Below, piece after piece: positions 50,997 to 64,000 of a stretch of 64,000 bases of DNA (within the stretch, counting starts at the first letter, position 1; every line of letters starts with the position of its first letter). The translations under genes and the position numbers were made by a program. The notes beneath the pieces were generated by a model. The model did no database searches, was not told where the DNA came from, and was given only the letters and a program-made list of their open reading frames with translations. The stretch is from a bacterium 0.1xD8-71. GTDB lineage: Bacteria; Bacillota; Clostridia; Lachnospirales; Lachnospiraceae. The stretch spans positions 62,001 to 126,000 of the forward strand of contig RAYR01000014.1 of NCBI GenBank assembly GCA_003612405.1. Direction: 5' to 3'.

Positions 50997-53183
50997 ATGT
51001 TCACAAATTCAGAAAAAATCCAGCATATGATGCATTTCACCAAAACATACGAAGAGAACAGCCATAATATCTATCTGCGGGAGGCACGCTGTCTGGAAGC
51101 ACAGTTTTCTTATCTTATGCTCCCAATACGTTCAGAAGATTTGTTCGTTGGCCGCAAGACAGAACTCCCCATAGGATTCTGGGCACAAAATTCATACGGA
51201 ACGGTTGGCTATTACTGCGATGTTCCATCCTTACTTGCCTTAAAGGAGGATACCGCCCTTTCCGAAAAAGAGCTTCTTTCCATTGATTACCTGATTCAGT
51301 TCTGGAAGGGAAAAACCACCGATGAGAAGATACGTGCACAGTATACCCCCGATCAGAATAAGTATCTGAGTCATGGCGATTTTGAAATAGAAGCCGGAAT
51401 TGGCTGGCCCCTTTACCGAATGAGCGGCGCACAGATGAATCCGGAAAAGCTGCTGAATAAGGGTATCTGTGGAATCATCGAAGAAGCAGAAAAGCTTCGT
51501 TCCGGGAATCCTGATTTCTATGATGCCGTCAAATCAGCCATGCAGACCTTACAGACAATCTGCCTTCGCTATCGCCAGGAAATACTGAATCAAAAAGATC
51601 TTTGCAAAGATACACAGCGTCTTAAGGAACTATCCAATATGGCGGACAACCTGGAAGAAATCGCTTACCGTACACCGAAATCTTTCTGGCAGGCCGCACA
51701 GTTAAGCTATCTGTTCTATCTGCTTTCCGGTACCTATAATTATGGACGGATGGATGAATACCTGGGAAGCTATTATACCCATGACCTGGATACCGGAACG
51801 ATTACAGAAGAATGGGGATTATCTCTTTTAACAAGTCTGTGGAAGCTGATCATTGAACGCAATAATATCTTTGACGGCCGCATCATCCTGGGCGGAAAAG
51901 ACCGGAAGAATCTGGAATATGCAGACCGCTTTGCCCTCGCAGCCATGGAAACTTCGCGTCGTACCAAGGATATCCTTCCCCAGCTCACCCTCCGGTGCTA
52001 TACCGGCATGAATGAGACCGTGTATCAAAAAGCACTGGAAGTCATCGGCGAAGGTACTACCTTCCCGATGCTCTATAATGATGATGTGAACATTCCGGCA
52101 GTGGCAAATGCCTTTAACCTTCCCACGGATATTGCTCAGGAATATGTTCCTTTTGGCTGCGGTGAATATGTCATTTATAACAAAAGTTTCGGCACCCCCA
52201 GCGGCGCAATCAACTTTTTGCAGGGCCTCAACGCAATGCTTTATGATGGGGAAAAGAATTATCTGGAAGAATGTCCTGACTTTGAAAGCTTTTATGCGGC
52301 ATACCTGTCTGACATGCAGCATATCATTGAACTCCTTGCCTTACAGGAACGGCAGGAATATGATGTATGCGCCGCTGACGCACCGTATCTGTTTTTCAGT
52401 ATCCTGTTTGATGACTGCCTGGAGCGCGGCAAACCGGTATTCGATGGCGGCGTACGCTATTTAGAAGGAACCCTCGAGGGGTACGGCAATACCAATACCG
52501 CTGACAGCCTGACTGCCATCAGAAAATATGTATATGAAGAAAAACTGATCACACCGCAGACAATGGCCGAAGCACTGAAACATAATTTTGAGGGCTATGA
52601 AGAAATTAGGACAATGCTTCTGGCTGCGCCCAAATACGGCAATGATGATGACACGGCGGATTCCATGGCAGTCCGTTTTCATGAAGATATCAGCAACATC
52701 ATCCGCAACAGCGCCAGGAAGGCTGATTTACACTCTTACCTGATGGTGGTGATCAATAATCACATGAATACCACATTCGGTATGACTACCGGTGCTTCTG
52801 CCGATGGTCGTCCCGGCTATTCCTATATGGCCAATGCAAATAACCCCACCGGAGGCTGTGATACCAATGGCATCACAGCCATGCTGAACTCTCTCGTAAA
52901 GCTGACTCCGTCCTTACATGCAGGCTCTGTACAGAATATGCGCTTCAGCAAAGAAATGTTCACCAGACTGCTGCCCAAAACGAAAGGTCTGTTAGCCGCT
53001 TATTTCAAAAACGGCGGCGCACAGACAATGATCACTGTGCTAAACCGTGGCGATCTGGAGCGTGCCATGGAAGAACCCGAGAAATATCAGAATCTGATTG
53101 TCCGTGTCGGAGGATTCAGCGCACGTTTTGTAGAACTGTCCCACAATGATCAAAAAGAACTTTTAAGCAGAAACACTTACTAA
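50997..53183 (+). CDS. Glycyl radical enzyme of uncharacterised clade (GCGEY motif)
   Basis: 728 residues behind AAAGGAGG. The C-terminal glycyl radical site is VRVGGFSARFVEL with radical Gly706. The thiyl-radical cysteine is C388 in EYVPFGCGEYVIYNKSFGTP, with E390 two residues later. Pyruvate formate-lyase has a Cys-Cys pair here; dehydratases and C-N or C-S lyases have GCVEP. This protein keeps Cys-x-Glu but replaces V by G and P by Y. His126 in YLSHGDFEIEAGIGWP may match the catalytic His of glycerol dehydratase. The usual annotation, formate acetyltransferase, is therefore doubtful, and elimination of water or another group from a diol-like substrate is more likely. It is cotranscribed with its activase and is oxygen-sensitive. 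Confidence 0.9.
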   Translation: MFTNSEKIQHMMHFTKTYEENSHNIYLREARCLEAQFSYLMLPIRSEDLFVGRKTELPIGFWAQNSYGTVGYYCDVPSLLALKEDTALSEKELLSIDYLIQFWKGKTTDEKIRAQYTPDQNKYLSHGDFEIEAGIGWPLYRMSGAQMNPEKLLNKGICGIIEEAEKLRSGNPDFYDAVKSAMQTLQTICLRYRQEILNQKDLCKDTQRLKELSNMADNLEEIAYRTPKSFWQAAQLSYLFYLLSGTYNYGRMDEYLGSYYTHDLDTGTITEEWGLSLLTSLWKLIIERNNIFDGRIILGGKDRKNLEYADRFALAAMETSRRTKDILPQLTLRCYTGMNETVYQKALEVIGEGTTFPMLYNDDVNIPAVANAFNLPTDIAQEYVPFGCGEYVIYNKSFGTPSGAINFLQGLNAMLYDGEKNYLEECPDFESFYAAYLSDMQHIIELLALQERQEYDVCAADAPYLFFSILFDDCLERGKPVFDGGVRYLEGTLEGYGNTNTADSLTAIRKYVYEEKLITPQTMAEALKHNFEGYEEIRTMLLAAPKYGNDDDTADSMAVRFHEDISNIIRNSARKADLHSYLMVVINNHMNTTFGMTTGASADGRPGYSYMANANNPTGGCDTNGITAMLNSLVKLTPSLHAGSVQNMRFSKEMFTRLLPKTKGLLAAYFKNGGAQTMITVLNRGDLERAMEEPEKYQNLIVRVGGFSARFVELSHNDQKELLSRNTY

Positions 53184-53214
53184 AACCAGGATGCCATAGG
53201 AGGAGGAATTTGTG

Positions 53215-54129
53215 ATGGATGATTTAAAAACAGGTATGATATTCGATATACAACGCTGTTCTATGTATGACGGCCCCGGCATCCGGACAACCGTATTCCT
53301 GAAAGGATGCCCCCTGTCATGCAAATGGTGCCATAATCCCGAGTCACAAAGACCGCTTTCTGAACTGGCATTTTACGCTGACAAATGCGTACGCTGCGGA
53401 AAATGTGGAGAAATCTGCCCCGATGTGCACAAACTGTCCGCGCGTACTCATAAAGTCCATTATCAAAACTGTAAAGCCTGCGGCAGATGCGAAAGCGTCT
53501 GCCCGGTTCATGCCTTAAAACTAATCGGGAAAACCTATCAGATTAAAGAAGTCATGGATATCCTGAGAAAAGATATTCCCTACTTTGCATCTGCCGGGGG
53601 AGGGCTGACCATATCCGGCGGAGAACCCTTTTCCCAGTACATTTTCCTGAAAGAACTGCTGCAACATGCAAAAGCGGAAAACATCCATACCTGTATTGAA
53701 ACAAGCGGCTTTACCACCCGTGAAAAAATAGACGGTGTTCTGCCATATACAGATCTGTTTCTCTTTGACTATAAAGTCACCTCACCGGAATTACACCGAC
53801 AGTTCACCGGTGTTGACAACCATATGATATTGGAAAACTTCCGATATCTTTATTCCCGCAGTCAGGCAGTCATTCTCCGCTGTCCTATCATCCCCGGATA
53901 TAATGACACGGAAGACCATTTTCGCGCCATCTGCGACATGGAGAGACAATATCCGAATCTGACCGGTATCGAAATCATGCCCTATCACAGCCTGGGGCGT
54001 GAAAAAGCTGCCGCCGTGAATAAAGCCTACGAAATAACAACGCCTACCGCAGACGATACGGTCAAAAAACAGTGGAAAAGACAGTTAAAAACGTTTGGCG
54101 CAAGTGATGCATTATTAAAGTCATTTTAA
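53215..54129 (+). CDS. Glycyl radical enzyme activating enzyme (radical SAM)
   Basis: 304 residues from the ATG at 53215 behind AGGAGGAGG. The radical-SAM cluster motif is KGCPLSCKWCHNPE (C32, C36, C39). An inserted ferredoxin-like domain has two CxxCxxCxxxC sets (C58/C61/C64/C68 and C86/C89/C92/C96), as in activases of dehydratase-type enzymes but not in PflA. The SAM-binding LTISGGEPF motif follows. It abstracts hydrogen from Gly706 of the adjacent enzyme. The gap is 31 bases, so the two are cotranscribed. The extra clusters support the view that the partner is an eliminase-type enzyme and not pyruvate formate-lyase. Confidence 0.94.
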   Translation: MDDLKTGMIFDIQRCSMYDGPGIRTTVFLKGCPLSCKWCHNPESQRPLSELAFYADKCVRCGKCGEICPDVHKLSARTHKVHYQNCKACGRCESVCPVHALKLIGKTYQIKEVMDILRKDIPYFASAGGGLTISGGEPFSQYIFLKELLQHAKAENIHTCIETSGFTTREKIDGVLPYTDLFLFDYKVTSPELHRQFTGVDNHMILENFRYLYSRSQAVILRCPIIPGYNDTEDHFRAICDMERQYPNLTGIEIMPYHSLGREKAAAVNKAYEITTPTADDTVKKQWKRQLKTFGASDALLKSF

Positions 54130-55805: not shown

Positions 55806-57821
55806 ATGGTTGAATATGAAAAAATAACGAAAATTCCCTACGGCGGAGACTACAATCCGGAACAGTGGCCGGAAGAGACCTGGGAAGAGGATATGCGGCT
55901 TCTGAAACTGGCCCACATCGACATTGTCACTCTGAACGTCTTCAGCTGGGCCGCTTTACAATCCGATGAAGACACCTATCATTTTGAGAAGCTGGATAAA
56001 ATCATGGAACTGGTGCGCAGTCATGGGCTCAAAGTATGCCTGGCCACATCCACTGGCGCCCATCCTGCCTGGATGGCCAGAAAACACCCCGATATCCTGC
56101 GGGTGGAGAGCAACGGCATGAAACGAAAGTTTGGCGGCAGACACAATTCCTGCCCCAACAGTCCCACCTATCGGAAGTTTGCCCCGGCGCTGGCGGCCAA
56201 ACTGGCCGAACGCTACAAAGGATATGACAATATCGTCTCCTGGCATATCTCCAACGAATACGGCGGGGAATGTTACTGCGAAAACTGTGAGAAAAAGTTC
56301 CGGGAATGGCTGAAAGAAAAATATCAGACCATCGAAGCGGTGAACCATGCCTGGGATACCGCTTTCTGGGGGCACACTTTCTATGACTTTGAGGACATCG
56401 TTGTTCCCAATCAGCTTTCCGAACACTTTAACAATGACCGTACCATGTTCCAGGGCATCTCCCTGGACTACAGACGGTTCAACTCCGAAAGCATCTTAAA
56501 TGCCTACCGTCTGGAATATGACGCCATCCATGCCATCACACCGGATATCCCCATCACCACGAATCTGATGGGTACTTATCAACCCCTGGATTATCAGATG
56601 TGGGCCAAATACATGGACTTTGTCTCCTGGGATAACTACCCGGCCAACGATACGCCTCTGGAAGAGACAGCCATGCGCCATGACCTGATGCGCGGCCTAA
56701 AGCAGGGCAAACCTTTCGCCCTGATGGAGCAGACGCCTTCCGTGACCAACTGGCTGCCCTATAATATGCTCAAACGGCCCGGCGTTATGCGGCTGTGGAG
56801 TTATCAGGCAGTGGCCCACGGCGCCGATACCGTCATGTTCTTCCAGATGAAAAGAAGTATTGGCGCCTGCGAGAAGTACCATGGCGCCGTGATCGACCAT
56901 GCAGGCCATGAAAATACCCGGGTCTTTCGGGAAGTCAGTGAACTGGGTGCCGAACTTGATAAGCTGGGAAATAAAACCCTGGGCGCAAGATGCGACGCCA
57001 GGACAGCCATTGTCTTTGACTGGGATAACTGGTGGGCCGTCTCCTACTCCGCAGGTCCTTCTGTCTACCTGGATTACTGTAAAGAAGTACTGCGCTACTA
57101 TAAGGCGCTCCATAACCTGAATATTCCCGTGGACATGATTGGTGTGGAGGACGACCTGTCCGCCTATTCCCTGGTGATTGCTCCTGTACTCTATATGGTC
57201 AAGACCGGTTATGATGAGAAAATCCGTTCCTATGTAGAGAACGGCGGCCGTTTCCTGACCACCTTTTTCAGCGGTTATGTGGATGAGCATGATCTGGTGA
57301 CCGTCGGCGGCTACCCCGGCAGACTGCGGGATATCCTGGGCATCTGGGTGGAAGAGGAAGACGCCCTGCCGGAAGATGTGCATAACAGCTTCACCTACCA
57401 GGGTAAAACCTATCCTGCCGCCATGCTCTGTGACCTTCTTCATCCGGAAGGCGCCGAAATTCTTGCGGTCTATGATAAAGACTTCTACGCCGGTATGCCC
57501 GTATTGACAAAACATGCCTTTGGCAGAGGCTTCGGTTACTATGTGGCCACACAGTCAGACGAAGCCTTTTACAGGAATTATCTACAGGAAATCTGTGAGG
57601 AAGCCGGCATCAGACCGATTATGGATACGCCGGATACTGTAGAAGTGACCAGAAGAATCAATAAAGAAGGAACTTTTATTTTTATACTCAATCACGGGGA
57701 TAAGATTTATCAGACTACGCTTCCTTTTGCGGGAACTGACCTTCTGAGCGGACAAGTCCATGCTGCTGGTGACAAAATTACAATTGCCCCCATAGATGTG
57801 GTGATTCTACAGCTTTCCTGA
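55806..57821 (+). CDS. GH42 beta-galactosidase
   Basis: 671 residues, no signal peptide, so cytoplasmic. It opens PYGGDYNPEQWPEETWEEDM, the GH42 hallmark. The acid/base is E151 in WHISNEYGGE and the nucleophile E308 in FALMEQTPS. Four zinc-site cysteines, C116, C156, C158 and C161 (NSCPNSP and GGECYCENCEKKF), are all present. A trimerisation domain (about 395-600) and a small C-terminal beta domain follow. It hydrolyses beta-galactosides, often galactooligosaccharides or plant galactans. TATAAT at 55753-55758 and an AAAGAGG ribosome site precede it. It is a single gene next to, but separate from, the mannoside locus. Confidence 0.96.
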   Translation: MVEYEKITKIPYGGDYNPEQWPEETWEEDMRLLKLAHIDIVTLNVFSWAALQSDEDTYHFEKLDKIMELVRSHGLKVCLATSTGAHPAWMARKHPDILRVESNGMKRKFGGRHNSCPNSPTYRKFAPALAAKLAERYKGYDNIVSWHISNEYGGECYCENCEKKFREWLKEKYQTIEAVNHAWDTAFWGHTFYDFEDIVVPNQLSEHFNNDRTMFQGISLDYRRFNSESILNAYRLEYDAIHAITPDIPITTNLMGTYQPLDYQMWAKYMDFVSWDNYPANDTPLEETAMRHDLMRGLKQGKPFALMEQTPSVTNWLPYNMLKRPGVMRLWSYQAVAHGADTVMFFQMKRSIGACEKYHGAVIDHAGHENTRVFREVSELGAELDKLGNKTLGARCDARTAIVFDWDNWWAVSYSAGPSVYLDYCKEVLRYYKALHNLNIPVDMIGVEDDLSAYSLVIAPVLYMVKTGYDEKIRSYVENGGRFLTTFFSGYVDEHDLVTVGGYPGRLRDILGIWVEEEDALPEDVHNSFTYQGKTYPAAMLCDLLHPEGAEILAVYDKDFYAGMPVLTKHAFGRGFGYYVATQSDEAFYRNYLQEICEEAGIRPIMDTPDTVEVTRRINKEGTFIFILNHGDKIYQTTLPFAGTDLLSGQVHAAGDKITIAPIDVVILQLS

Positions 57822-57888: not shown

Positions 57889-58797
57889 CTATCTGATCCT
57901 CTTTGCCACCACCACAAACCGTCCGTCCTGCACATGATATGCACATGTCGATAAGGTCAGAAACGTATCTCCAAACTTCGCCTCCACACCCGTATCATAT
58001 AGAGAAAGTTCTTTGATATTATTATAAAAATCATCAAATTCCGCCTGCGTCCCCGCCTCGTAGAACTGATAATACTTAAACACATCGTCTTCCGCATTAT
58101 AGACCTGTGACCGGAATACCGCTATCACATCATAAGCACGCTCCTCATAAAGCGTGTCAAAGGAAATTCTGGAATGTTCTTTATAGAAACTCTCCTTCTG
58201 GTACAAGTCCAGATCCCCGAACATGGAACCGTCTTTCATGTTGTGGCCATAGACGATAAAGTTGGTTCCTGTATCCACATCGGCCTGGTTTTTCACATAG
58301 AGACATCCGTACTTACTGTCATTCCCATAAAAATCATGATGCAAATAATATTCGTTATCTGCATTTTGCAGAATGGGATAATCTATCTTCATATCCTCTA
58401 TGGAAACCCATCCCACCAGGTCGCTGTTTTCCTGATATATATCCACATATTTGGCCAGCATGACAGGAGATTCAGCGCCTGTTGTCATGCTTTCTTCTGT
58501 CTGCGGCACGGCAGATGTTTCCGCATTGTCCGCCCCTGCCTGCGACATGGCAGACATTTCCACTTTCACTGTCTCTGGCATACCGCCATTTTCCAGGACA
58601 GAAACCTCGCCCGTTTCCGACACTTCTCTCTCCTGTGAAATATGTTCCTTGGACACTTCCGTCATCTTCCGCAGAGCTTCCTGCTGTGCCTTACTCTGCA
58701 TGGATTCGCGGCATGCCTGCCCGATGGGAATCAGACATGCCACAAACACCACCAGACAGACAATCTTAATTATCCGCCTTATTTTTCTATTCTCCAT
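57889..58797 (-). CDS. Class B sortase
   Basis: 302 residues from the ATG at 58795-58797 (AGAGGT in front), overlapping the surface-protein stop by 11 bases. N-terminal membrane anchor (about 8-28). A 90-residue Ser/Glu/Met-rich linker is followed by the sortase domain (about 113-302). The catalytic triad is H185 (FIVYGHNMKDG), C285 (LTLSTCAYHVQDG) and R293. The TLSTC motif and the helix preceding it are class B features. It cleaves a sorting motif and links the surface protein to cell wall or pilus. The tight overlap suggests it is dedicated to the adjacent gene product. Confidence 0.93.
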   Translation of the reverse strand: MENRKIRRIIKIVCLVVFVACLIPIGQACRESMQSKAQQEALRKMTEVSKEHISQEREVSETGEVSVLENGGMPETVKVEMSAMSQAGADNAETSAVPQTEESMTTGAESPVMLAKYVDIYQENSDLVGWVSIEDMKIDYPILQNADNEYYLHHDFYGNDSKYGCLYVKNQADVDTGTNFIVYGHNMKDGSMFGDLDLYQKESFYKEHSRISFDTLYEERAYDVIAVFRSQVYNAEDDVFKYYQFYEAGTQAEFDDFYNNIKELSLYDTGVEAKFGDTFLTLSTCAYHVQDGRFVVVAKRIR

Positions 58798-61700
58798 AAA
58801 CCTCTTTCCACTCCACAGCCGTCTGTTTACCGATACTGTGATAGTAAACCAAAAGCACAAAAATTGCAACAAGAGCAAGCAGTCTGCGTATTCTGCCGCC
58901 ATGTTTTGCCCAGCTGATCATTCTCGACACAAGTTCCTTCTTAGTCTCCTCACTCATACCATATCTGCGGTCTGTAAAGTATAACAGCAGATAGGTGAGA
59001 CCAGAGATCATGGCAAGTGTTGCACACAATTCTATCGGCGTATTATCCTGTGTCTTTGGCTCGTTATCTCTTGTCTGTGACGCTTTACCGGCTGCCGGCC
59101 CGACCGTAGCCGTGTCATCCGCTTTTGCCACATCCTGATAGACGATCGCATATGTGGAGAAACGATCCGTGGCAATGGAGATCGTATCCGCGCCGGTATC
59201 CAGATCATTCAGGATATCTGTCTTGCCGTCATGTACCCGGATAACAGCAAATACTCTTGTCTTACTGACATCTGTATTCCGCAGCCTCTCCGGCACAGCC
59301 ATCGTCACAATAACTTTATCTGATGTCCTGGTGATATCGGTGCGCTGCATCCCCACCAGCTTATACAGACTGATATCCAGATACTGCCCAAGGGTAAAGC
59401 CCGGCAGGGATCTGTTCAGTGCCGCTTCCACCAATGCCTTATCTGCACTGCTTACAGTGTCAGCAGCATCCTTCACATCCAGAACAAGTCTTGTATCCAC
59501 GCCTCCTGCCACCAGCTGCTTCTCTGTCTCATTCAAAAGCATGTCTGCCAGTTGTGCCAGAGGCGTTGCTATGATGGTATCAAAGGTATCCTCCGCCTTG
59601 ACATGTACTTCCTTGCGAAGTAATCCCTGATTTTCACTCTTTACCCTGGTCTGCGCCGTGGCAGGATCATAATTACCATTCCCGCCCGGATTGCGGCTTG
59701 CTGCGGATATCGTGCCATCCGCTGTGCCGCCCCCGCCAGAACCATTGCTGCTGCCGTCAGTACCTGTGTTATCTCCGGCCGGTATGCCGCCGCCATTACC
59801 GGTATGATTGCTTCCACTCGATCCGTTGCTGCCAGTGTTATTTCCGCCTGAACCGCCGCCTTGATTATCGCCGGTATTGTCACCGCCTGTCCCGGTGGCG
59901 GGGATTGCCTCCGTCCGCATGATACGGCCGCATACATTACACTTATAGGTTCTTGTCCCTTCTGTAGTCTGTGTAGGCGCTGTCGTCACCGTTCCGCTAT
60001 CTTCCACATGCTGTGCGATATTCTGCCTGTCACCACACCCAAGACACTCACGCCAATGGTTTGCAGCATCCGATTTCCAAGCGGTTCCATAGTCATGGAT
60101 ATGGCCGGGCGGCAGTTTGTCGATTGTCTCCGTCCGCATCACATGACTGCACACACTGCACTTATAGGTTCTTACACCTTCTGTAGTCTGTGTAGGCGCT
60201 GTCGTCACCGTTCCGTCATCTTCCGTATGCACCGCATATCCCTGTTTATCCACATTCTCTGTGATGGAACAGTCCGCCGCCTCGCAGTTATGCCAGTGAT
60301 GGGTTTCATTGTCTGTCCAGGCATCCGCCCATTGATGTTCATGGGATGCCGCCTTAGTTCCCAGGTAGAGATTCCTGCCGGTCCCCGGCGCAGTTCCAAA
60401 TACTAAGTCATAATCGGTTCCGGAAAGCATAAACACTGCCGGATCCAGTGTAATCGAATCGCCTGCCGGGCAGACAATCAGGGTTCCCTCCTGATTCACA
60501 TTTTCCACATTGATCGGAATATTACTGCCTGTCACCGCGCCAATCTGTGTGACTGCCTCCCCGGTTCTCAATACGATTCTGCCATCCGCTCCAAAAACCG
60601 GGCTTCCCTCAATCCGAAGCTCTGAGGCTTCTGTGGGTGCCGCAACACCTCCATTGCGAAGCATAACCATTCCGTTTATTGTACCGCCGTGAATGGAAAT
60701 GCTTCCCCGCTTCCATGACTTCTCCTCGGAAGAATTCTTATCAGCCTTTCCGATAACCACCTTCCCGGCGGAACCACTTGCTATATCAATGGAAACACTG
60801 CCGGCCTTATCTGCCCATACACCAATCAACTGGCCGCCGATTGTTCCGCCATTGACAACCACCGAAACATCTTCCACATAAGCGTTCTGTACACCGATTA
60901 CAGAACCTTGGATTGCTCCGCCCACAGCCCGTATCTCCACAGCCGGAGCATGGGACCCAGCACTCGTGATACCCTGCACAAAACCGTCTACAGTACCTCC
61001 CTGAATATCAACGGTAACTTTCTGTCGAAAATCAGTTGAAAACTGATCTGCATACACCGACCCTTTGATATGACCACTTTTCAGAGTGACAAGGGAAGTT
61101 CCTGTTATCACATTGTCAGGCTGCTGTCCGCCAATAAAGATACCATCATAGCCGCCGCCAGATCCGATGCTGGCATTTCCCTCCACCGTAATATTAATAT
61201 TCCCATCTATTGTAATATCAGGGTTTTCAGCACCGCCATACACGGCTTCACTCACCGCCGCATCGCCGCCGATTACTATATTCACATTGCCGACCATATC
61301 CTCGGCACCGGCAGACCTTATCTGTCCCACAGTACCGCCTGTCATATGAAAATCAAAGTTTCCATGCAATGCTCCTGCAAAAGCAGCCTGAACCTGCTTA
61401 ACATTCCCGCCCGTCATGGCAATCCTGCTGTCTCCGGTATAATCTCCACTAAGGTTCGCGCCATATATTATAGACTTACTAAGATCATAACCCTCATCCA
61501 GGCTGCCTGTTTCACTCTGAAGTTCTATCAGGTTTTCTCCTGCATCCACTTCCCCGTTACCGTTTGCATCATGATAGAGCTTCGTCTTACCCGCATCAGC
61601 ACCCTCTGTCACAACCACCGGTGTGCCGTTTAACACAATCCAACCTTTTACAGAATTATCAATATTTACGTCCGCCCGGCCCACTGCCCGCATCGACATC

Positions 61701-62623
61701 ATAGCAGCCTGCGCCGTCCAGCTGGCATATACAGTCCTGGCGTCTGCAATCTCTTGGGTAAAGTCAAAGACTTCATCTCCTCCCTCTGCCGTCACCCAGC
61801 CGTCAAACTGATAGCCTTCCCTCACGGGATCTGACGGTTTTACAGCTTCCGCCTTCCCGTCCAGGGCATAGTCCACAAAATATTTCTCCCCCTCATTTAT
61901 AAATGTCACCGCATAAAAAGAACAGGGCCCAAAAGTCTGCTCCTCTCCCTTGTACACGGTATAATCCCCTATCTGTATCTGATTTCTATATACATAAACA
62001 TGGCTCGTCCACCGGGCATCCTCTTCCTGTGTCAGAAACCCATTCACGGTGGCGCTAAGTGTGATTTCCGTATAGTCACCCTTATCCTCTGTTTCCGTTG
62101 TACAGGACAATGTTCCGTCTTCGCCTGCCAATTCCAGAGTTCCAAACGAATCTGCATCATATCCATATACCTGGAACACGATGCTTACTTTCGCCTCTTC
62201 TTCGGAAGTCCCCGTTTCCGTGGATTCCTCCGGATTCTTTTCCTCGCCTTCTACCAGGGTATCATTCTGCCCCGGCAAATTTTGATCCGGAAGGTCTGTC
62301 GGATCTCCCGGTTCATTTCCGTCCTGCGTTCCTGTCGGGTCTCCCGGTTCATTTCCATCCGGCGTTCCCGTAAAATCTCCCGTTCCGTTTTCATCCGGTG
62401 TTCCTGTCGAATCTCCCGGTTCATTTCCACCCGGCATCCCTACCGGGTCTCCTGTCATATTCCTGCCATCAGTTACTGTATCCGCTTTTTCATCCTGCCC
62501 TTCGACATTCTCCTGCGCGAACACATACATCGGTACTGCGTTAGCCGTCATTCCAACCACCAACACGGCCGAAAGCAGCATGGCCATAGCTCGTTGTAAC
62601 AGGCTGCCCTTTTGTCTCTTCAT
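58787..62623 (-). CDS. Large repeat-containing cell-surface protein, probable sortase substrate
   Basis: 1278 residues from the ATG at 62621-62623 behind GGAGG. In order: signal peptide (1-36); 12-residue Pro/Gly/Asp-rich repeats (about 60-115); an InlB-type repeat (PVREGYQFDGWVTAEGGDEV); a calcium-loop-like HDANGNGEVDAGENLIEL; a long Gly-rich stretch of beta-helix-like GG-x-V turns (about 390-720); two homologous CxxC-bearing repeats (YKCSVCSHVMRTE and YKCNVCGRIMRTE); a Gly/Ser/Asn linker. The C-terminal region carries the sorting-like motif EPKTQDN, a membrane segment, a basic loop and, unusually, a second membrane segment. It is probably an adhesin or matrix-binding protein. The sortase gene overlaps its end. 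Confidence 0.82.
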   Translation of the reverse strand: MKRQKGSLLQRAMAMLLSAVLVVGMTANAVPMYVFAQENVEGQDEKADTVTDGRNMTGDPVGMPGGNEPGDSTGTPDENGTGDFTGTPDGNEPGDPTGTQDGNEPGDPTDLPDQNLPGQNDTLVEGEEKNPEESTETGTSEEEAKVSIVFQVYGYDADSFGTLELAGEDGTLSCTTETEDKGDYTEITLSATVNGFLTQEEDARWTSHVYVYRNQIQIGDYTVYKGEEQTFGPCSFYAVTFINEGEKYFVDYALDGKAEAVKPSDPVREGYQFDGWVTAEGGDEVFDFTQEIADARTVYASWTAQAAMMSMRAVGRADVNIDNSVKGWIVLNGTPVVVTEGADAGKTKLYHDANGNGEVDAGENLIELQSETGSLDEGYDLSKSIIYGANLSGDYTGDSRIAMTGGNVKQVQAAFAGALHGNFDFHMTGGTVGQIRSAGAEDMVGNVNIVIGGDAAVSEAVYGGAENPDITIDGNINITVEGNASIGSGGGYDGIFIGGQQPDNVITGTSLVTLKSGHIKGSVYADQFSTDFRQKVTVDIQGGTVDGFVQGITSAGSHAPAVEIRAVGGAIQGSVIGVQNAYVEDVSVVVNGGTIGGQLIGVWADKAGSVSIDIASGSAGKVVIGKADKNSSEEKSWKRGSISIHGGTINGMVMLRNGGVAAPTEASELRIEGSPVFGADGRIVLRTGEAVTQIGAVTGSNIPINVENVNQEGTLIVCPAGDSITLDPAVFMLSGTDYDLVFGTAPGTGRNLYLGTKAASHEHQWADAWTDNETHHWHNCEAADCSITENVDKQGYAVHTEDDGTVTTAPTQTTEGVRTYKCSVCSHVMRTETIDKLPPGHIHDYGTAWKSDAANHWRECLGCGDRQNIAQHVEDSGTVTTAPTQTTEGTRTYKCNVCGRIMRTEAIPATGTGGDNTGDNQGGGSGGNNTGSNGSSGSNHTGNGGGIPAGDNTGTDGSSNGSGGGGTADGTISAASRNPGGNGNYDPATAQTRVKSENQGLLRKEVHVKAEDTFDTIIATPLAQLADMLLNETEKQLVAGGVDTRLVLDVKDAADTVSSADKALVEAALNRSLPGFTLGQYLDISLYKLVGMQRTDITRTSDKVIVTMAVPERLRNTDVSKTRVFAVIRVHDGKTDILNDLDTGADTISIATDRFSTYAIVYQDVAKADDTATVGPAAGKASQTRDNEPKTQDNTPIELCATLAMISGLTYLLLYFTDRRYGMSEETKKELVSRMISWAKHGGRIRRLLALVAIFVLLVYYHSIGKQTAVEWKEVYGE
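59912..60223 (-). repeat. Duplicated CxxC-domain segment in the surface-protein gene
   Basis: Two nearly identical stretches of about 95 bases (59912-60005 and 60127-60223) encode the repeats TVTTAPTQTTEGTRTYKC and TVTTAPTQTTEGVRTYKC, each followed by a second Cys. The DNA identity is high, so the duplication is recent or kept by gene conversion. Confidence 0.75.
62301..62444 (-). repeat. 36-base tandem repeat, four units, in the surface-protein gene
   Basis: Units start at 62301, 62337, 62373 and 62409 and encode a 12-residue repeat of the form DPTGTQDGNEPG. A partial unit follows at 62445. The array lies just after the signal peptide and could expand or contract between strains. Confidence 0.85.
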
Positions 62624-62802: not shown

Positions 62803-64000
62803 CTACAACAGACTGTCGAGTACTCCTTTGATTCCTTTTTCATCATACAGATTCTTATAAACCGCCACTTCCCCCTGAATCAGCTCGTCAATGACCCGCA
62901 TCCCCAGAAGTTCCACCGGCGCCTTGTCATCCGTCATGATACGTTCCCCTGCTTCATATACCGTCAGGTTATCCGAAACGGCGCCCATCATGGCATAGAG
63001 CCCCTCATCCGTAATCTTCTCCCGGTGAAGATGCAGATTCTCAAGCATCTGTGGATTATTGGAGGCAAAAAGCTCTCTGTTCGTAGAACCTTTGACATCC
63101 ACTGTGTACACTTCTCCAAACACACTGCTGATGGTATCCGCCAGGTAAGCGTTGATGCTGTCTTCGCCGCTGCCCCGCATATTCATATTCACCACCATCA
63201 CGCCATCTTCTGTCAGATGGTCTCTCACCAGTGTAAAGAATTCTGTAGAGGACATCTGAAAGGGAATCGTGATATCCTGGTAAGCATCTACCATGATCAC
63301 ATCATATTTCCCGTCAATGGCATTCAGGTAGGCCCGCCCGTCATAGGTAGTGACTTTCACATCCTCCGGCAATTCAAAATACGCTCTCGCCAGATCCGTG
63401 ATCTTCTCATCAATCTCCACACCTTCCACTGCCATATTCCCATAATACCTGCGGCACTGGTTGGCGTAAGTACCCGTCCCCATGCCAAGAATCAGCGTAT
63501 TACAGTCTGCCGGATTTTCCTGCCCCGTCATCAACGGTGCCGCCATGGCATAATCATAATACATGCCGGTAAGTTCTTCCCCTTTCATGAGAATGGACTG
63601 CACACCGAATAAAACATTTGTCGATAATATGACACTTCTGTCGTTTTCTTTGACCTGCAAATAGTTATAGACGGATTCTCCCTCATAGGTCAGATCACTC
63701 TCCCAGAAAGCAAAGCTGTTGGAAGTACCGAAGATACAGCACAGAACAAAAAGCACAGCTGTAGCCGCACATTTGCGCAGTCCTCTTTTGACGCTGACAA
63801 AATAAAGCAGGCTTAAGATCAATAATATTCCCGCAAAAATAAGAAAGGTCACAGAAGTGCCTACTGCCGGAATGGAGATAAAGGTAGGCACAAAGGTCCC
63901 GATAATACTGCCGATGGTATTAAATGCACCTAACGTCCCCACAATCCTGCCGCTGTCATCCAGGCTGTCCACCGAATACTTGGCCAGGGATGGTGTCACC
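62803..64000 (-). CDS. Membrane protein fused to a spermidine-synthase-like domain (5' end outside window)
   Basis: The 3' 399 codons are visible; the frame is open to the right edge, so the GTG near 63999 is probably not the start. The visible N-terminal part has hydrophobic segments (about 25-50, 53-70 and 80-95) with an MFS-like turn (GRIVGTLGAFNTIGSIIGTF). The C-terminal domain (about 130-360) is a Rossmann methyltransferase-like fold of the SpeE type: NTLILGMGTGTYANQCRRYY, VEIDEKITDLARAYFELPE, YDVIMVDAYQDITIPFQMSS. The Asp-rich gate of true spermidine synthases is not clear, so activity on polyamines is uncertain. A membrane-tethered aminopropyl- or methyltransferase is the best description. 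Confidence 0.8.
   Translation of the reverse strand, partial: VTPSLAKYSVDSLDDSGRIVGTLGAFNTIGSIIGTFVPTFISIPAVGTSVTFLIFAGILLILSLLYFVSVKRGLRKCAATAVLFVLCCIFGTSNSFAFWESDLTYEGESVYNYLQVKENDRSVILSTNVLFGVQSILMKGEELTGMYYDYAMAAPLMTGQENPADCNTLILGMGTGTYANQCRRYYGNMAVEGVEIDEKITDLARAYFELPEDVKVTTYDGRAYLNAIDGKYDVIMVDAYQDITIPFQMSSTEFFTLVRDHLTEDGVMVVNMNMRGSGEDSINAYLADTISSVFGEVYTVDVKGSTNRELFASNNPQMLENLHLHREKITDEGLYAMMGAVSDNLTVYEAGERIMTDDKAPVELLGMRVIDELIQGEVAVYKNLYDEKGIKGVLDSLL

Follow-up and report, generated by a model that had tools for sequence, protein, structure and literature searches.

What kind of sorting signal runs on past its own basic end? Such signals are usually treated as a pentapeptide followed by one helix and a basic end; the class B sortase (SrtB) of S. 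aureus recognises NPQTN, and sortase studies have mostly used the catalytic domain alone. We analysed a 64,000-nucleotide stretch of DNA (hereafter, the window) from the Lachnospiraceae bacterium 0.1xD8-71 (assembly GCA_003612405.1, contig RAYR01000014.1), in which a sortase gene adjoins the gene for a surface protein whose C-terminus carries two hydrophobic segments. Is this end a damaged copy of a familiar signal, the anchor of a protein that is never cut, or a signal of another kind?

Both genes lie on the minus strand, the surface protein gene (58787–62623, 1278 amino acids) preceding the sortase gene (57889–58797, 302 amino acids), with 11 bases (58787–58797) common to both. This overlap, already noted in a first-pass annotation of the letters alone, was confirmed and recurs in homologues: 12 of 22 adjacent substrate–sortase pairs overlap by 11 bases as well. 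The sortase scores 164.2 bits (E = 3 × 10−48) against the NCBIfam class B model TIGR03064, above its cut-off of 153.75, is also matched by PF04203 in Pfam, and has 2oqw as its best match among SrtB relatives with solved structures (E = 4 × 10−34). Its hydrophobic N-terminus forms an N-terminal signal anchor, and the catalytic residues stand in their usual contexts, His185, Cys285 and Arg293 being assigned by motif (YGHNM from residue 183, STCAY from 283, and R293). By family score and motif context, it is a predicted class B sortase. The pair is flanked by a GH42 beta-galactosidase and a spermidine-synthase-like protein (window 55806–57821 and 62803–63999), and genes resembling these two flank an srtB that stands alone in genome G040. 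Elsewhere in the window (50997–54129), a glycyl radical enzyme (PFL-like, Gly_radical) precedes a radical-SAM activase that has 4Fe-4S domains.

The surface protein, listed as the partner of the sortase, has a signal peptide-like N-terminus and a Listeria–Bacteroides repeat (Pfam List_Bact_rpt) at residues 237–300. Its C-terminus reads EPKTQDN-TPIELCATLAMISGLTYLLLYF-TDRRYGMSEETKKELVSRMISWAKHGGRIRR-LLALVAIFVLLVYYHSIG-KQTAVEWKEVYGE. The motif EPKTQDN (residues 1188–1194, at 59042–59062), with an expected cut after Thr1191, is followed by a hydrophobic helix that would be the stop-transfer helix of the signal (helix 1, IELCATLAMISGLTYLLLYF, 58976–59035), a basic loop with a predicted helix of its own (SEETKKELVSRMISWAKH, 58901–58954), a second hydrophobic helix ending in YYHSIGK (helix 2, LLALVAIFVLLVYYHSIG, 58829–58882) and 12 more residues, all on the minus strand. 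The Pro and Thr of EPKTQ, helix 1 and the basic residues are those of a canonical sorting signal, but the protein does not stop at a short basic tail: 62 residues follow helix 1, among them the conserved second helix. A C-terminal extension with a second membrane segment had been claimed on first inspection, and it proved to be a conserved domain, with seven invariant columns across 28 aligned homologues (L003, L012 and L024 were left out of the alignment). An AlphaFold model of the tail contains three helices at low confidence (mean pLDDT 66, pTM 0.39). Model helix 11–37 corresponds to helix 1 (pLDDT ~75 over most of its length) and model helix 41–57 to the loop helix; helix 2 is placed by the alignment, motif statistics and the structure model.

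The first-pass annotation had called the sorting end atypical. Gln does stand at P1′ in place of Gly, but the motif retains its E, P and T, here and in all 28 aligned copies. Across 82 distinct tails (loci L001, L002 and L032–L112), 72 are C-terminal with a readable motif, 4 lie at sortase N-termini and 6 are remnants or fragments without a motif; the last two groups were excluded from the motif count. The 72 share the consensus EPxTx, with Glu at P4 in 69 (V in 2, A in 1), Lys at P2 in 60 and Gly at P1′ in 59, the 13 others having Q (4), A (3), S (3), D (2) or R (1). Position P1′ is therefore loose, with Gln in the minority, and we rejected that Gln as what makes the pair special. On the sequence evidence, the distinguishing features are Glu at P4 and the second helix.

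That second helix is highly conserved, its terminal YYHSIGK being almost invariant across proteins that differ widely in length and ectodomain. In three near pairs, dN/dS is ~0.05–0.08 over 57 codons of the tail and looser, 0.11–0.16, over the 190 codons preceding the signal; the tail is under strong purifying selection. The loop carries a net positive charge in 69 of the 72 tails, and its amphipathic helix showed helical-face conservation at an uncorrected p of 0.017; for helix 2, helical-face conservation was not significant (p = 0.057). The 29-position sorting-signal model TIGR03063 (srtB_target) matches 11 of the 28 tail homologues at E ≤ 0.1, at best 2.5 × 10−5, and the window copy, at 14.4 bits, misses its cut-off of 18.15. 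The loop and helix 2 are described by no Pfam or NCBIfam model.

Using the 93-residue C-terminus as a query, we found a second tail in the same genome, terminating a 2442-residue open reading frame (ORF) on another contig, and tails in 22 of 98 genomes (own included), all 22 within one genus. The tail was absent from 38 genomes of other families of the order, in a coarse sample and first look. A scan of 84,980 species genomes yielded 62 tail loci, a set retrieved with the peptides LVYYHSIG and GM[TS]E.. as probes and thus uninformative on tails without them. Most of these loci are labelled Lachnospiraceae or a member genus, some only 'bacterium', and a few come from bins named otherwise; four such bins (L105, L109, L111 and L099) are titled Muribaculaceae, Gastranaerophilales or Bacillus, have Lachnospiraceae-like loci and are probably mislabelled. 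With at most 12–13 candidates scored per genome, the tail was present in 11 of 397 genomes, in 8 of 334 genera, of a family-wide sample, and in a phylum-wide sample of 398 only in the genome of the window. A general Firmicutes domain was accordingly rejected (1/398 in the phylum, 0/38 in other families), with the proviso that the samples are coarse. Several of the surveyed genomes are incomplete.

Within these limits, the tail follows one type of sortase. Among 60 genomes of the genus, it was present in 21 of 22 with a window-type SrtB and in 1 of 38 without (Fisher, p = 5.9 × 10−14), window-type meaning a P0002 match of at least 262 bits, a cut chosen after the scores had been seen, the next lower match being at 212 bits. 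Among the 21 is G052, whose only tail is divergent and adjoins a sortase that is itself divergent; when this genome is not counted, the conservative figures are 20/22 and 1/38 (p = 1.1 × 10−12). On a species-proxy tree of the housekeeping sortase (a single gene and a quick method, 57 genomes, with 3 of the 60 left off as having no housekeeping sortase), SrtB and tail both change 11 times. Among eight independent, supported pairs in which SrtB differs, the tail follows in 6–7, shows no difference in 1–2 and never goes the opposite way (median p = 0.031). In the family sample, the tail was present in 8 of 10 genomes with an SrtB of at least 250 bits, again a cut set after the scores were seen, against 3 of 387 others; G000 and G059 belong to both samples, which are therefore not independent. 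A close SrtB is found in 24 of the 62 loci, 22 times downstream of the tail gene (intact or as a remnant) and twice upstream. Linkage is not the cause everywhere, because five genomes (G003, G029, G038, G040 and G059) keep SrtB distant from the tail genes, and in the genus sample the two often lie on contigs not linked to one another. The pairing of tail and sortase clade is thus well supported, and since the tail is almost confined to bacteria with this one sortase, it resembles an address label of two helices that this enzyme reads.

A tree of sortase catalytic domains (77 of 81 retained, four distant sortases left out) placed all 42 tail-type enzymes in one clade (support 96/96), with one divergent tail-bearing pair, L023 and L049, outside it. 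We also read 12 other SrtB loci (L149–L153, L156, L204, L205, L217 and L219–L221). Six adjoin a surface protein whose signal has one helix (IPKTG, TPQTG, SPQTG, VPNTG and, twice, VPKTG); beside the remaining six, no single-helix surface protein was recognised. Homologous pairs with PKTG and a single helix, which would have implied a mutation in the window copy, were absent from the tail-type clade, where PKTG is common and, in the copies found, comes with two helices; this absence is partly by construction, because the copies were found through the tail. A search of the genome itself for similar endings is less biased in this respect: the DNA pattern for EP[KQE]T has 10 matches, of which two are sorting signals, each with two helices. 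By the Pfam sortase model, this genome has two sortases. The housekeeping enzyme (415-amino-acid ORF) lies in G000:C10:26119–34131, where a nearby 1934-residue ORF ends in TPKTGD with one helix. Among 22 sortase columns that discriminate the clade, none offers a Lys or Arg to bind the P4 Glu; two are His. A Cys-Leu in the sortase anchor occurs in 36 of 42 tail-type enzymes and 6 of 39 others, a weak signal because many other sortases have Cys-Phe at a similar place.

The exceptions to the pairing include several decaying genes. The tail of G034, which has no SrtB, is a 32-amino-acid fragment, and that of G153, without a window-type SrtB, belongs to a gene broken in frame and split into ORFs of 247 and 677 amino acids. 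Conversely, G047 has an SrtB and no tail, and the final codons of a tail gene remain just 5′ of its srtB, so this genome has lost its substrate neighbour. In G040 and L110, the neighbour is gone or a remnant and srtB is intact, G040 having a tail protein elsewhere. Tail genes are often lost or reduced to their last codons (L148, L110, L160, L106, L107 and L112), with the adjacent srtB intact in L148, L110 and L160. Val occupies P4 in two of the three tails of G202, a genome whose nearest SrtB (221 bits) lies beside a single-helix VPNTG protein; P4 of the motif may thus track the sortase (L205, L214–L216). The tail of G272 adjoins an SrtB of 235 bits. Against the pattern, we detected no tail in G481 and G445, which have close SrtBs, or in G121, which has a more distant one. 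At L154 (G052) and L155 (G059), the tail is very divergent, with GISEEKKNE..ISWAK instead of YYHSIGK, and the adjacent SrtB is equally so, ~39% identical to that of the window. The first-pass suggestion of a variant motif read only by its own sortase therefore survives in part: co-occurrence, clade and decay all speak for a dedicated pairing, but Gln is not its distinguishing feature.

In four sortases (L072, L080, L088 and L105; tree labels L010, L026, L088 and L017), a copy of the loop and helix 2 precedes the usual signal anchor. These extended enzymes form one subclade (support 100/96), and gene order suggests that the copy arose by tandem duplication of the substrate's 3′ end. It is under purifying selection (dN/dS 0.11–0.46 over 45 codons), as compared with 0.05–0.10 for the catalytic part and a looser 0.08–1.29 for the linker after the copy. 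This linker is very basic and separates the module from the signal anchor, so a substrate-like in-to-out topology would be impossible, because under the positive-inside rule the linker would then face outside. The module in the extended sortases is therefore predicted to be either non-spanning or oriented differently from that of the substrates.

These results fit a scheme in which the surface protein would be a substrate of the adjacent SrtB and a member of a Lachnospiraceae family with the two-helix signal EPxT|x. By the positive-inside rule, helix 1 would run from out to in as a stop-transfer segment, the basic amphipathic loop would be cytoplasmic, and helix 2, with YYHSIGK at its end, would lead back to the outer face. 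SrtB, by analogy with its class B family, would cut after Thr and join the ectodomain to the wall. The hairpin past the cut site would be a dedicated module with two tasks, membrane retention of the substrate and its docking to this sortase clade. A single SrtB could then serve its own scattered set of substrates, with the housekeeping sortase presumably working alongside on ordinary single-helix signals of the TPKTG type. The parts of this scheme differ in strength. That the surface protein is a cognate substrate of the window sortase clade is very probable. For the whole reading, in which a dedicated sortase B system works on a sorting signal extended by a membrane hairpin for holding or docking the substrate, our preference is modest; we judge the odds even that the hairpin recruits substrates to that sortase or retains them for it. 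More tentatively, and somewhat on the doubtful side, the loop and helix 2 may be a transferable intramembrane docking module, with recognition perhaps running from module to module.

The best surviving alternative is that the hairpin does nothing but retain the protein, as a sturdier stop-transfer element, with specificity residing in EPxT and the tail inherited together with the signal by common descent. The motif and the tail do go together, and the residue at P4 (Glu in 69 of the 72 tails) may shift with the sortase, as perhaps in G202, where two of three tails have V and the nearest SrtB is beside a single-helix VPNTG signal. An anchor alone, however, need not keep YYHSIGK almost invariant across very different proteins, nor would it explain the tail copy on the sortase itself, and we consider passive retention unlikely as the full account. 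It is improbable, too, that the functional product is the remnant, an 87-residue hairpin left after the cut and acting as an intramembrane signal or on the sortase. Its tight selection (0.05–0.08 against 0.11–0.16 before the motif) would suit such a role, and PMC11502775, referring to Hall et al. 2019, offers a precedent in the C-peptide intramembrane signal of Streptococcus gordonii adhesins; yet an unsystematic look at the loci revealed no linked sensor gene beside the tail genes, and substrate choice explains the link to a sortase clade more simply. If the protein stayed uncut instead, its two helices would make it a resident membrane protein working with the sortase. Two helices joined by a basic loop would suit a stable hairpin, and P1′ is variable, but E, P and T, kept in 28 of 28 copies, would be needless in an uncut protein, and P1′ variation is known for another class B sortase (AbpA, LPKTS; PMC4974636), which makes this reading quite improbable. 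A mutated or chimeric window gene, with Gln and the extra helix as defects, can be dismissed despite the common decay of tail genes in the group (G034, G153, L106 and L107), as the intact homologues found have helix 2, the nearest relatives L051 and L052 retain both Gln and helix 2, and the tail is under purifying selection.

We conclude that the tail is real and conserved, a variant sorting signal paired with a dedicated class B sortase, and that the role proposed for its second helix is a good hypothesis. Evolution has given a conserved second helix to the substrates found for one clade of sortases and, on one occasion, to the enzyme as well, which makes intramembrane recognition testable by deletions and swaps. 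The tail also provides a handle for predicting the substrates of this SrtB, and annotation could use it to recognise a class of surface proteins of gut bacteria that current sorting-signal models overlook or place below the cut-off. If the docking module is real, it would constitute a second address beyond the pentapeptide and a natural system for testing how sortase and substrate meet through their membrane parts. In the open-licence literature, we found no published description of the two-helix tail, including for the strings YYHSIGK, EPKTGD and VYYHSIG, and the variant is apparently undescribed.

Among its closest known counterparts is the class B system of TIGR03064 and TIGR03063, to which it is linked by the window sortase passing the former model and 11 of 28 tails matching the latter; it differs in the EPxTx motif, the ~62 residues after helix 1 and the conserved second helix. 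The sister SrtB pairs likewise consist of a class B sortase and a neighbouring large surface protein, the signal of the latter being of PxTG type, but this signal has a single helix before its basic end and carries I, T, S or V at P4, and the sortases fall outside the tail-type clade. As described in PMC4974636, AbpA–SrtB of oral streptococci is also a dedicated adhesin–SrtB locus with an unusual signal, LPKTS, and a tolerant P1′, the S being its most variable residue; AbpA, however, ends in LPKTSAVK without any helix, the opposite departure from the usual signal. Recognition between substrate and sortase inside the membrane has a parallel in S. pyogenes, where, in PMC12746448, a transmembrane contact of SrtA with M protein is proposed from simulation. 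Those simulated partners are single helices, whereas in the window system a conserved extra module would make the putative contact.
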